This document shows positions 32,683 to 36,454 of a stretch of 37,755 bases of DNA, piece by piece. Made by a program: the position numbers and the translations under genes. The stretch is taken from the NCBI GenBank assembly GCA_028285065.1, contig JANQQG010000145.1, positions 1-37,755 on the forward strand. Reading direction: 5' to 3'. How positions within the stretch are numbered: the stretch's first letter is position 1; each line of letters begins with the position of its first letter. This DNA comes from Phycisphaerales bacterium. GTDB lineage: Bacteria; Planctomycetota; Phycisphaerae; Phycisphaerales; UBA1924. A model generated the notes under the pieces. That model was not told where the DNA came from. It made no database searches and worked only from the letters and a program-made list of their open reading frames with translations.

Positions 32683-32967
32683 TCAGTTGATGCGGTTCTC
32701 GACCACCAGCAGGTGGTACCCGAACTGCGTCTTGACCGGGTCGGAGACCTCGCCGACCGGCAGATCACCGAAGACCACGGCGTCGAACTCGGGCACCATC
32801 CGGCCCTGATCGAACTCGCCCAGCGAGCCGCCGTCCTGGCCCGACGGGCAAGACGAGTGCTCCTTGGCGAGCTCGGCGAAGCTGCTCCCGTTCTCGATCT
32901 GCTGCTTGAGCTCCATGGCCTTGGCTTCGGAGTCGACAAGGATGTGGCTGGCGGTGGCGCGGGGCAT
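32683..32967 (-). CDS. Parvulin-type peptidylprolyl isomerase
   Basis: ASHILVDSEAKAMELKQQIENGSSFAELAKEHSSCPSGQDGGSLGEFDQGRMVPEFDAVVFGDLPVGEVSDPVKTQFGYHLLVVENR; SD GAAGGAGG. Confidence 0.95.
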   Translation of the reverse strand: MPRATASHILVDSEAKAMELKQQIENGSSFAELAKEHSSCPSGQDGGSLGEFDQGRMVPEFDAVVFGDLPVGEVSDPVKTQFGYHLLVVENRIN

Positions 32968-33019
32968 TGGGGCCTCCTTCGGCGCGGGTGAGTCGGACCG
33001 GTGTCTTGGACCGGCGACT

Positions 33020-33883
33020 CTAGCTCCCACCGCCCTCGCGGAACAGCCGACGGACCAGCCGGTCACGCAGACGTCGTGGCAGACGCCCGAAGACCCACGC
33101 CAACGCCCGCGCGTCACGACCGACGAGCGTCCGGGTGCGAGCCCGGCGAGCCGTCAGCAGGCGGGCGATCACCCGCCCAACATGATCGGGATCGACCCCC
33201 GCAGCCCCGCTTCTGGCCGCCTGTCGCCCGAGTTCCTCGAGTGCCGCCCGGTACCTGTCGGCTCGATCCGCCGGCGCGCCCGCCAGGCGTTCCTCGCCCG
33301 CCCCGATCGACTTGTCCCAGATCGGTGTCCGCACAGCCCCGGGCTCGACGATCACCGCATCGAGCCCGAACGGGCTCACCTCCGCCCGCAGCGCATCGGT
33401 GATCGCTCCCAACGCGAACTTGCTCGCGGAGTACGGCCCCATGAACGGGAGCGTCACGCGCCCCGACACCGATCCGACGTTCACCACGCGCACCGGCGCA
33501 CCACCAACGCGCAGCCCCTCATGCAACAAGGGCAAGCACGCGTACGTCACACGCACGGCGCCAAGCACGTTGACGTCGAACTGCGCCTCCCAGCCATCCG
33601 CCTCGAGCGCCTCGACCGGCCCGGCGACGACGATCCCCGCGTTGTTGACCAGCCCACCAAGCGCCTCGCGACCGCTCAGCGCCGCCTCGATCGACTCTTG
33701 CTTGGTCACGTCGAGCGTTACGGGCTCGAGGTTGCCCGTCGCGCTTGCGCGCAGGGACTCGGCATCTTCCTCGCGCCGCACGCCCGCGAGAACCGCGAGC
33801 CCACGCCGATCGAGCTCGAGCGCGGTGCTCCGCCCGATGCCCGTCGAGGCGCCGGTGACGAGGATGGGAGCGCGTCGCTGCAT
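33020..33883 (-). CDS. SDR family oxidoreductase
   Basis: LVTGASTGIGRSTALEL, LVNNAGIV, SVSGRVTLPFMGPYSASKFAL. Confidence 0.94.
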   Translation of the reverse strand: MQRRAPILVTGASTGIGRSTALELDRRGLAVLAGVRREEDAESLRASATGNLEPVTLDVTKQESIEAALSGREALGGLVNNAGIVVAGPVEALEADGWEAQFDVNVLGAVRVTYACLPLLHEGLRVGGAPVRVVNVGSVSGRVTLPFMGPYSASKFALGAITDALRAEVSPFGLDAVIVEPGAVRTPIWDKSIGAGEERLAGAPADRADRYRAALEELGRQAARSGAAGVDPDHVGRVIARLLTARRARTRTLVGRDARALAWVFGRLPRRLRDRLVRRLFREGGGS

Positions 33884-33940
33884 CGGGGCACGGTACACCC
33901 GGCTCCGACATGCCGCGAATCGCCGTGGTCGGACCGACCC

Positions 33941-34495
33941 CTAAGGCTTGAGCAGCTTGCCGTCCGCGTCGGTCCCGCCAACGAGCTTCCCATCCTCGAC
34001 GAACGCGCCCTCGATCCGTCCGACGCGGATGAGCGCGGTCGCGGGCGAGTCGTCCGCGAGGAACTCCCATGTCGTCGTGTCGAAGCGCCACCCGTGCGTC
34101 CCCGCGCCGGCCGCCGGACCATCGATCCTCACCGTCGCGAGGTCGTTGAAGGGGTTGGTCGGGATCGACGCCAGGTACGGGCCGAAGATCGCGCCCGCGC
34201 CCGAATCACCGAACTCGGTCGTGTTCTGTGTCAGACGCCGCGAGAAGTCGGTCCCGCTCGTGTCGATCAAGCCATTCTTGTCGTGCGCCGGGGACCTCCC
34301 CGGATGCTCGGCGCTGTACCGGAAGATCGCCTCAGTCACCGTCCGCAGGTCCGCCTTCACCGACGCGACACGCGACCTCGCCGCGGCCCGCGTCACGCGC
34401 GGCACCGCGATCGCGCTGATCACGCCGATGATCGCGACCACGATGATCAACTCGACCATGCTGAAGGCGCGGAGATGGCGTCGGCCGATCGACAC
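33941..34495 (-). CDS. Type IV pilin-like/T2SS-type pseudopilin
   Basis: GTG start; RRHLRAFSMVELIIVVAIIGVISAIAVPRVTRAAARSRVASVKADLRTVTEAI is a prepilin N-terminus (class III leader-like). Confidence 0.8.
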   Translation of the reverse strand: MSIGRRHLRAFSMVELIIVVAIIGVISAIAVPRVTRAAARSRVASVKADLRTVTEAIFRYSAEHPGRSPAHDKNGLIDTSGTDFSRRLTQNTTEFGDSGAGAIFGPYLASIPTNPFNDLATVRIDGPAAGAGTHGWRFDTTTWEFLADDSPATALIRVGRIEGAFVEDGKLVGGTDADGKLLKP

Positions 34496-34566
34496 GTCGG
34501 GCTGCTCCCTTGCGGCGCGGGTATCTCCTCGCCGAACCCACAGATCGGTGCCCCCGCCACGACTTC

Positions 34567-34917
34567 TTATTCGATCGGAAGAGAACCCCTCATCCAGGGC
34601 ACACCCGCCGTCACGGACAGCACACGCGCGGGGTTCTCGGACGCCGCTCGTGGACTGGCAGGCGAACGCCGCCCAGCGCCGCGGACCCCGGCGAGCCGTC
34701 GGGCCGGAACAGCGCACGCTCGGAATCGAACCACCCCCCGTCGTGCCCGCGCCGGCAGATGCCCGTCGATCCGGATCCCGGCCAGCCGAGGCGCCGCGAT
34801 CGCAAGGACCACACCCATGATGGTCAGGACGACCACGACTTCGATCGAGCCGAAGCCGCGACCGTGGCGGCAAGGGGCTCTCGCTGAACCGCGTTCTTCC
34901 CCGACCCGGAAGTAGAC
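34567..34917 (-). pseudogene. Degenerate or very short second pseudopilin
   Basis: HGRGFGSIEVVVVLTIMGVVLAIAAPRLAG (prepilin signature). The open frame back to TGA (34920-34918) has no ATG/GTG/TTG upstream of the GF site; downstream similarity seems split between frames. Confidence 0.5.
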
Positions 34918-34939
34918 TCAGAGGGGAAGGGAGTCCCCC

Positions 34940-36454
34940 ATGAATGCGCCCGGGTTCGACATGAGTTTCTCGTTTGGCGGTCCGGGTCGCTCTCCTGTCC
35001 GGCGCGATCCGACCTCTCCCATGGTGATCGCACTGGTCGCCGACTTCTCCGGGCGCGCCTCGCGCAGCCAGGTGGGATCGCCCGACGAGATCGCCGCGAG
35101 ACGCCCGCTCCGCTGCGATGTCGACAACCTCGATGCGCACATGGAGCGCCTCAGCGTGCACATCACCCTCGGCCAGGGCGCCGGCGCCGACGAGATCCGC
35201 CCGACCGAACTCGACGCCCTCCACCCCGACGAACTCTGGCGCACCCTCTCTGTCTTCGACGCGATGCGCACCCTCCGCAAGCGCCTGACAGATCCGGCGA
35301 CCTCCCACGAGGCCTGCCAGGAGGTCCGAGCCTGGGCCGGCGAGGCCGCGCCCGACACCGACGGAGCACCCAAACCGGAGCCCGCTTCGCCCGCGGACGA
35401 CTTCGAACGCCTCCTCGGCGCCGAGGCGCCCGGGCCGAGCGCTGGCGCGATGCGTCCGGACGTCGACGCGTTCGTCCGAGCGCTGGTCGGCCCTCACGTC
35501 GTGGAGAGTGCCGATCCCGATGCCGCACGCCTGACGCAGGTCGTCGATCAATCGATCACGGAGGCGATGCGCCGGGTCCTGCGCGATCCCGGTTTCCGCG
35601 CCACCGAACGCGCCTGGCGCAGCGCACAACACCTGATCACGACGCTCGAGACAGACGAGACGTCGCTGCGCGTCCTGCTCGTCGACATCAGCGCACACGA
35701 GCTCGAGGCCGACCTGCGCGCGCACGCCGACGACCCGGCGCGCTCCGGCATCGCGCGCCTGCTCCGTTCGATCGCGCAGCAGGGTGACCCCGTCTCGATG
35801 CTCGCCCTTGACCGTGTGTTCGGCGCATCAGCCGGCGATGCCGCAATGTGCGCACGACTTGGCGCGATCGCGGCGGAAGCCGGAGCCGCGCTGCTGGCGG
35901 GCGCGAGCTTGGCGCTCGCGGGTTGCCCGTCGCTCCGCGATGCGCCCGACCCGATCGACTGGCAACCCGGTGTCGCGGGTACGGACGAGGACCAGGCCGC
36001 CTGGGGCGAGCTGCGCTCGATGGCGTGCGCCACCTCGATCTGCCTCGCCTGCCCGAGGTTCATGCTCCGCGCGCCCTACGGCCCCTCGGACCCGATCGAT
36101 GCCTTCGACTTCGACGAGGTCCCGAGCCTCGACGACCATACGGGGTACCTCTGGGCGCCCGGCTCGCTGCTGTGCGCGCAACTGCTCGGCGAGGCGTACT
36201 CGAGCAGCGAAGGGCGGGGATTCGCACCGGGCGCCGGCGAGGTCGGCTCGCTCCCGATGCACAGCGTGCGCGAGATGGGCGAGTCCGCAATGAAGCCGTG
36301 CGCCGAGGCGTGGCTGACCGACCGAGCCGCCGATCGCATGGCCGACGCCGGCCTCTGCCCGTGTCTCTCGATCAAGGGGCGCACCGGCGTCCGCGTCGCG
36401 TCGATGCGATCGATGGCCGTGGCAGACGGGCGATTGCTCGGACCGTGGGGCTAA
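34940..36454 (+). CDS. Single-chain TssB-TssC-like (T6SS-type contractile sheath) protein
   Basis: TssB-like N-terminus (PMVIALVADFSGRAS...RRPLRCDVDNLDAHMERLSVHITL...LHPDELWRTLSVFDAMRTLRKRL) and TssC-like C-terminus (VVDQSITEAMRRVLRDPGFRATERAWRSAQHLITT...CPRFMLRAPYGPSDPIDAFDFDEV...YLWAPGSLLCAQLL). Confidence 0.75.
   Translation: MNAPGFDMSFSFGGPGRSPVRRDPTSPMVIALVADFSGRASRSQVGSPDEIAARRPLRCDVDNLDAHMERLSVHITLGQGAGADEIRPTELDALHPDELWRTLSVFDAMRTLRKRLTDPATSHEACQEVRAWAGEAAPDTDGAPKPEPASPADDFERLLGAEAPGPSAGAMRPDVDAFVRALVGPHVVESADPDAARLTQVVDQSITEAMRRVLRDPGFRATERAWRSAQHLITTLETDETSLRVLLVDISAHELEADLRAHADDPARSGIARLLRSIAQQGDPVSMLALDRVFGASAGDAAMCARLGAIAAEAGAALLAGASLALAGCPSLRDAPDPIDWQPGVAGTDEDQAAWGELRSMACATSICLACPRFMLRAPYGPSDPIDAFDFDEVPSLDDHTGYLWAPGSLLCAQLLGEAYSSSEGRGFAPGAGEVGSLPMHSVREMGESAMKPCAEAWLTDRAADRMADAGLCPCLSIKGRTGVRVASMRSMAVADGRLLGPWG

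Follow-up and report, generated by a model that had tools for sequence, protein, structure and literature searches.

A single-chain TssB-TssC fusion from a Phycisphaerales bacterium is a short relative of TssCL that lacks the connectors of the sheath mesh

By the usual account, the sheath of the type VI secretion system (T6SS) has just two components, TssB and TssC. Contig JANQQG010000145.1 of a Phycisphaerales bacterium, analysed here over a stretch of 37,755 nucleotides (the window), encodes a single polypeptide that an initial annotation had read as an orphan TssB-TssC-like sheath protein, either a minimal sheath or a scaffold derived from a contractile system. Can one chain take the place of the two sheath subunits, and if not, what might it do beside them?

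The open reading frame (ORF) encodes 504 residues, starts with ATG and occupies positions 34940-36454 of the plus strand including the stop codon (34940-36451 without it), with a codon-position GC of 0.73/0.56/0.85 that resembles real genes nearby. Both the linker DTDGAPKPEPASPADD and the motif PRFMLRAPYG are found in it, as earlier described. The features of the locus are:

34920..34933, plus strand: possible ribosome-binding site, the purine-rich sequence agaggggaagggag directly upstream of the ATG
34940..36454, plus strand: TssB-TssC fusion ORF, 504 aa plus stop (Pfam, family profile, AlphaFold, Foldseek)
35018..35338, plus strand: TssB/VipA-like core at about residues 27-133, lacking the N-terminal arm of TssB (Pfam PF05591 and family profile)
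35351..35449, plus strand: acidic/Pro linker, disordered, residues 138-170, containing DDFERLLG at 152-159 (AlphaFold pLDDT <50)
35462..35500, plus strand: helix RPDVDAFVRALVG, aligned with an N-terminal helix of TssC (profile alignment to 5urw; helix 175-186 in the model)
35537..36412, plus strand: TssC/VipB N-terminal domain PF05943, residues 200-491, with PRFMLRAPYG at 372-381 (Pfam and profile)

A 683-aa ORF upstream of the fusion (32864-34915, plus strand) was taken as spurious; it has no family match and overlaps SDR and pilin-like genes on the minus strand. Two pilin-like genes are present on that strand, both directed away from the fusion: one at 33941-34489 of the window with an N-terminal methylation motif (PF07963), the other at about 34567-34836, which looks truncated.

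The TssC-like half is recognised by Pfam as PF05943, the VipB N domain, with E=3.4e-34 and 118.7 bits over residues 200-491 (cut-off 27), and a family profile made from 75 fusion relatives matches solved TssC chains at up to E=2e-81, ending at about residue 370 of TssC. The NCBIfam equivalog model for TssC, TIGR03355, is matched at profile positions 52-340 of 473 only, with 114.2 bits against a cut-off of 271.5. The STRENGTHENING TssB half reaches E=4.6e-15 when the family profile is compared with solved TssB chains, although the window protein alone gives a PF05591 (VipA) match below the 24-bit Pfam cut-off (16.6 bits, E=0.007, residues 27-118); the relatives L079 and L113 exceed this cut-off unaided, with 54.5 and 53.1 bits, respectively. 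Profile matches were found for both halves, and the TssB-like reading holds at the level of the family while remaining sub-threshold for the single sequence in Pfam. A single polypeptide uniting the cores of TssB and TssC is real, and it is, as had been proposed, shorter than TssB plus TssC and derived from a contractile sheath.

Structure prediction by AlphaFold with the family alignment, run as a single chain, yielded one confident fold with a pLDDT of 89.5 and a pTM of 0.89, in which the linker alone is disordered. Structural similarity search against the PDB using Foldseek showed that the significant matches, the top nine, are all TssC chains of T6SS sheaths. Profile alignment to M. xanthus TssC (PDB 5urw) pairs the helix RPDVDAFVRALVG with RGVQAFITEML; on the basis of the published sheath architecture (PMC5807055), we propose this helix as the equivalent of the outer-layer donor helix.

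The published sheath is layered into three domains. C-terminal strands of TssC and the N-terminal strand of TssB form the handshake mesh on the inside (domain 1), a shared sheet forms the middle layer (domain 2), and a helical bundle lies on the outside (domain 3; PMC5807055). The handshake strand is supplied by the TssB arm (R-x-PRV-x-I), which also binds TagJ in P. aeruginosa (PMC4239648). The window protein terminates 13 residues past the TssC N domain; canonical TssCs in the retrieved loci run 123-133 residues beyond it. No Pfam match was found on the window protein for PF18945, the C-terminal handshake domain of TssC that Pfam describes as gpW/gp25-like, and a model of such domains from canonical TssCs (VipB_2) matched none of 147 fusion ORFs. 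Moreover, the R-x-PRV-x-I arm was found at the fused module in 0 of 100 distinct fusions; of 11 canonical TssB ORFs, 10 carry it and the eleventh is cut by a contig or locus end. Judged from their sequences, all complete members of the fusion family lack both inter-subunit connectors, namely the N-terminal arm of TssB and the PF18945 domain of TssC. The retained TssB core and TssC N domain would correspond to sheath domains 2 and 3, the middle and outer layers, as assigned by homology and not by coordinate superposition, and they are predicted to fold together.

Besides the fusion, a tblastn panel matched no T6SS gene within the window, in agreement with the initial annotation. By position, the gene is an orphan. 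At the genome level this description fails. Targeted searches of the assembly located a canonical T6SS, with a tssA-tssB-tssC-hcp-tagJ-tssE-tssF-tssG-clpV cluster on contig C256, tssK and a tssM-like gene on contig C140, and vgrG on contig C248; hcp, tssK, vgrG and clpV are thus all encoded on other contigs, and the fusion is unlinked to the T6SS cluster.

Conservation of the fusion among 150 related genomes is partial: a TssC-like match occurs in 33 and the fusion in 15, and most relatives lack it. All 15 fusion-bearing genomes are T6SS-positive (Fisher p=6e-12; the genomes are related and the trials not independent), 14 of them with a canonical TssC and the remaining one, G113, with TssF at a contig start, TssK and VgrG. 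A sample of 393 planctomycete genomes gave the same picture, with the fusion in 26, every one of which also has a canonical TssC (26/26, Fisher p=5e-20; again kin genomes, not independent trials). Because 56 of the 82 TssC-positive genomes in this sample have no fusion, the gene is dispensable. Two genomes with weak fusion-like matches (G161 and G459) were excluded from the counts.

A genome scan with a closer subset of the family alignment returned 172 encoding places, 80 of which were kept; these include Planctomycetota, Pseudomonadota, Desulfosarcina, Nitrospira, Verrucomicrobiota and Myxococcota, and the fused module occurs in no fewer than six phyla. Among 40 fusion genomes across phyla, PF18945 was found in 38 and TssK in one more (39/40 with T6SS genes); the last, of 2.8 Mb, had none of the three T6SS families tested. 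The family tracks T6SS presence and is probably an accessory of the sheath, not the sheath itself.

Among the 42 loci that span at least 19 kb, 25 have other T6SS core genes beside the fusion and 17 have none. On plasmids of Parasedimentitalea and Qingshengfaniella, the fusion is located within a complete T6SS operon, flanked by an “ion transporter” gene and vgrG; in Eleftheria it comes after tssK, and several planctomycete copies are 4-17 kb away from tssC. The gene family near the fusion in most loci is vgrG (27 loci). The “ion transporter” gene adjoins the fusion in the roseobacterial operons (L173:13063-13917 and L174:13129-14010) and is also near it in L120; relatives of this gene are near the fusion in 15 loci, one of them verrucomicrobial.

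Phylogenetic analysis of the TssC domain placed the fusions apart from canonical TssC, a group that includes the second TssCs, with a support of 100/100; six split or end-truncated fusions were treated as fusions, not as canonical proteins, in the trees. Along the fusion tree, the T6SS class changes 3 times, compared to 12 changes expected from shuffled labels. So few changes indicate that the fusion follows its T6SS type even if unlinked, to which the phylogeny of the organisms may contribute.

The closest described relative of the window protein is TssCL of roseobacters, which was reported in 2022 in Front Microbiol, in Alphaproteobacteria only, as a protein with two VipA domains and one VipB domain whose function is not known (PMC9515649). 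We found no later paper using this name in the open-licence literature. Similar to the window protein, TssCL contains a module in which a divergent VipA-like domain precedes PF05943, and occurs in genomes with separate tssB and tssC. Compared to TssCL, the window protein is a bare module: the roseobacterial proteins retrieved here consist, in order, of a full-length canonical TssB (E=1.2e-60 in Pfam for L173), a long acidic repeat tether, the fused module and a C-terminal tail with LL motifs, and the second full-length VipA is seen only in these forms. The arm of this additional TssB, SQKFIARNRAPRVQIEYDVELYGAEK, hardly varies across nine roseobacterial sequences, and in one species the domain is 93% identical to the TssB of the cluster itself; these features are consistent with lattice competence. 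In the TssC-domain tree, the roseobacterial long forms sit within the clade of the other fusions, and the module of TssCL is not restricted to Alphaproteobacteria. The window protein can be classed, from these comparisons, as a short, seemingly mesh-incompetent TssCL relative in a widespread, functionally uncharacterised T6SS-associated family.

The annotated roseobacterial protein has no TssB domain because its RefSeq start is placed too far downstream: the fused gene (L173:13907-17653 and L174:13979-17641) is annotated from a point beyond an in-frame full-length TssB domain. In Pseudophaeobacter leonis (L141:7872-11734), the long form is present as two abutting ORFs, TssB plus tether and then the fused module, which may be two separate genes or the result of a frameshift or of an assembly error.

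Canonical TssB/VipA and TssC/VipB share with the fusion the TssB core, the TssC N domain and the motifs PRxxxRxPYG and FxFEE, whereas the fusion differs in being one chain, in having neither the TagJ-binding, handshake-forming arm nor PF18945, and in belonging to a separate clade. The tandem second TssC of some planctomycetes and one gammaproteobacterial MAG is also a PF05943 protein of T6SS-bearing genomes; unlike the fusion, it has no TssB part and clusters with canonical TssC. Four such divergent copies lie in tandem with tssC (L080:2216-3799, L081:2403-4019, L082:1092-2609 and L104:2060-3538), and the two tested retain PF18945 in addition to PF05943.

We consider it probable that the fusion serves the T6SS as an accessory protein: a mimic of the TssB-TssC sheath protomer, in one chain and without the handshake, that docks on the sheath or on its subunits. 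Since the outer-layer surfaces are kept and the connectors lost, it would dock without being woven into the contractile mesh; homology and the comparison with TssCL suggest docking on the sheath, at its end, base or surface, or on free TssB or TssC. Once docked, the fusion might modulate how the canonical sheath, whose genes lie on another contig, is assembled, how long or stable it becomes, or how ClpV recycles it; assembly, end-capping and ClpV recycling are all possible roles. TssCL of roseobacters has this module joined through the tether to a complete TssB with its arm, and this TssB would anchor the module in the sheath lattice. A broader version, which we advance tentatively as a plausible reading, holds that the family is a widespread T6SS component whose arm-stripped protomer mimic binds the sheath or ClpV and sets sheath assembly, stop or recycling, TssCL being a derived, sheath-tethered form and not a recent roseobacterial invention.

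The linker brings ClpV into consideration more directly. ClpV is recruited by N-terminal helices of TssC, with motifs of the LLDEII type as the binding motif in V. cholerae (PMC4239648, PMC5048182). The linkers of the fusions are similar to the TssC helices of their respective genomes: DDFERLLG of the window protein, which is of the EFxxLL class, resembles SEFEKLLD at the TssC N-terminus of its own genome, GNLLDQVLEETQ of G280 resembles its own KSLLEKIIEEG, and AGLLDQVLDAS of Desulfosarcina its own KSLLDQIISEG. Over 50 genomes with one T6SS class, the match gave an AUC of 0.83 (p=1.7e-4); it does not hold after correction for ancestry, which leaves only 2-3 independent contrasts on the fusion tree, and we therefore rejected this covariation, significant as it is naively, as proof of ClpV binding. 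Acidic C-terminal tails that end in MDxELAALLxxL-like motifs, present several times over in some proteins, occur in about 40 of 100 fusions (e.g. L041, L079, L109 and L173), and within fusion-bearing loci the tail motif is nearly confined to fusions. The link to ClpV through these motifs is no more than suggestive.

A ClpV client, adaptor or decoy would use the linker, and the xDLxxLL tail in about 40% of members, to present a helix like the N-terminus of TssC, and would recruit or titrate ClpV or another reader and tune recycling without docking on the lattice. The known recruitment of ClpV by such helices, the linker resemblance and the fusion-specific tails agree with this reading, which we nevertheless regard as doubtful, given the loss of the match on ancestry correction, the mere 30 of 59 linkers that outscore shuffled ones, and the report that the P. 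aeruginosa helix of the EFxxLL class is not required for ClpV1 binding (PMC4239648). An adapter at the sheath end or baseplate is unlikely: as a specialised unit of the first or last ring, for which TssE supplies the gp25-like domain in trans, the fusion would mark the junction of sheath and baseplate or of sheath and cap. The gpW/gp25-like nature of the absent PF18945, the membership of TssE in GPW_gp25 and the frequent nearness of vgrG fit such a unit, but a gene absent from most T6SS genomes is not a required ring, and the nearness of vgrG may reflect operon order only. That the sheath fold has been repurposed for a task outside the T6SS might be read from the unlinked position of the fusion in the genome of the window and in 17 of 42 loci; its near-absolute co-occurrence with the T6SS and its location in T6SS operons of several phyla make this very improbable. 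A minimal or second contractile sheath, in which the fusion alone polymerises around a tube, is scarcely credible even though both halves of the protomer are present, as both mesh connectors are gone in every complete member, the same genome encodes a canonical sheath, and the tblastn panel found no second hcp or baseplate set nearby in the window. Between the two functions initially suggested for this protein, a scaffold or accessory role is likelier than a minimal sheath.

That a fused protomer unable to join the mesh is conserved across at least six phyla, often beside normal sheath genes, suggests an overlooked accessory layer of sheath control, an oversight probably due to annotation of these genes as “sheath large subunit”. 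Counts of T6SSs should not treat them as additional copies of tssC.

Two minor observations concern the genomes themselves. The record RHKP01000008.1 (L107), titled “Cyanobacteria bacterium CYA”, encodes a fusion whose sequence is that of L037, a locus of a genome (G032) from the family of the window; the identical fusion indicates that the title is probably wrong. In addition, ClpV starts with MAEISLK or MADISLK, with an uncharged residue 6, in the T6SS clusters of G084, G032, G067 and G023 (L186, L188, L191 and L192, respectively), despite a TssC of the EFxxLL type and the presence of TagJ, a mix of the two T6SS classes distinguished previously (PMC4239648).
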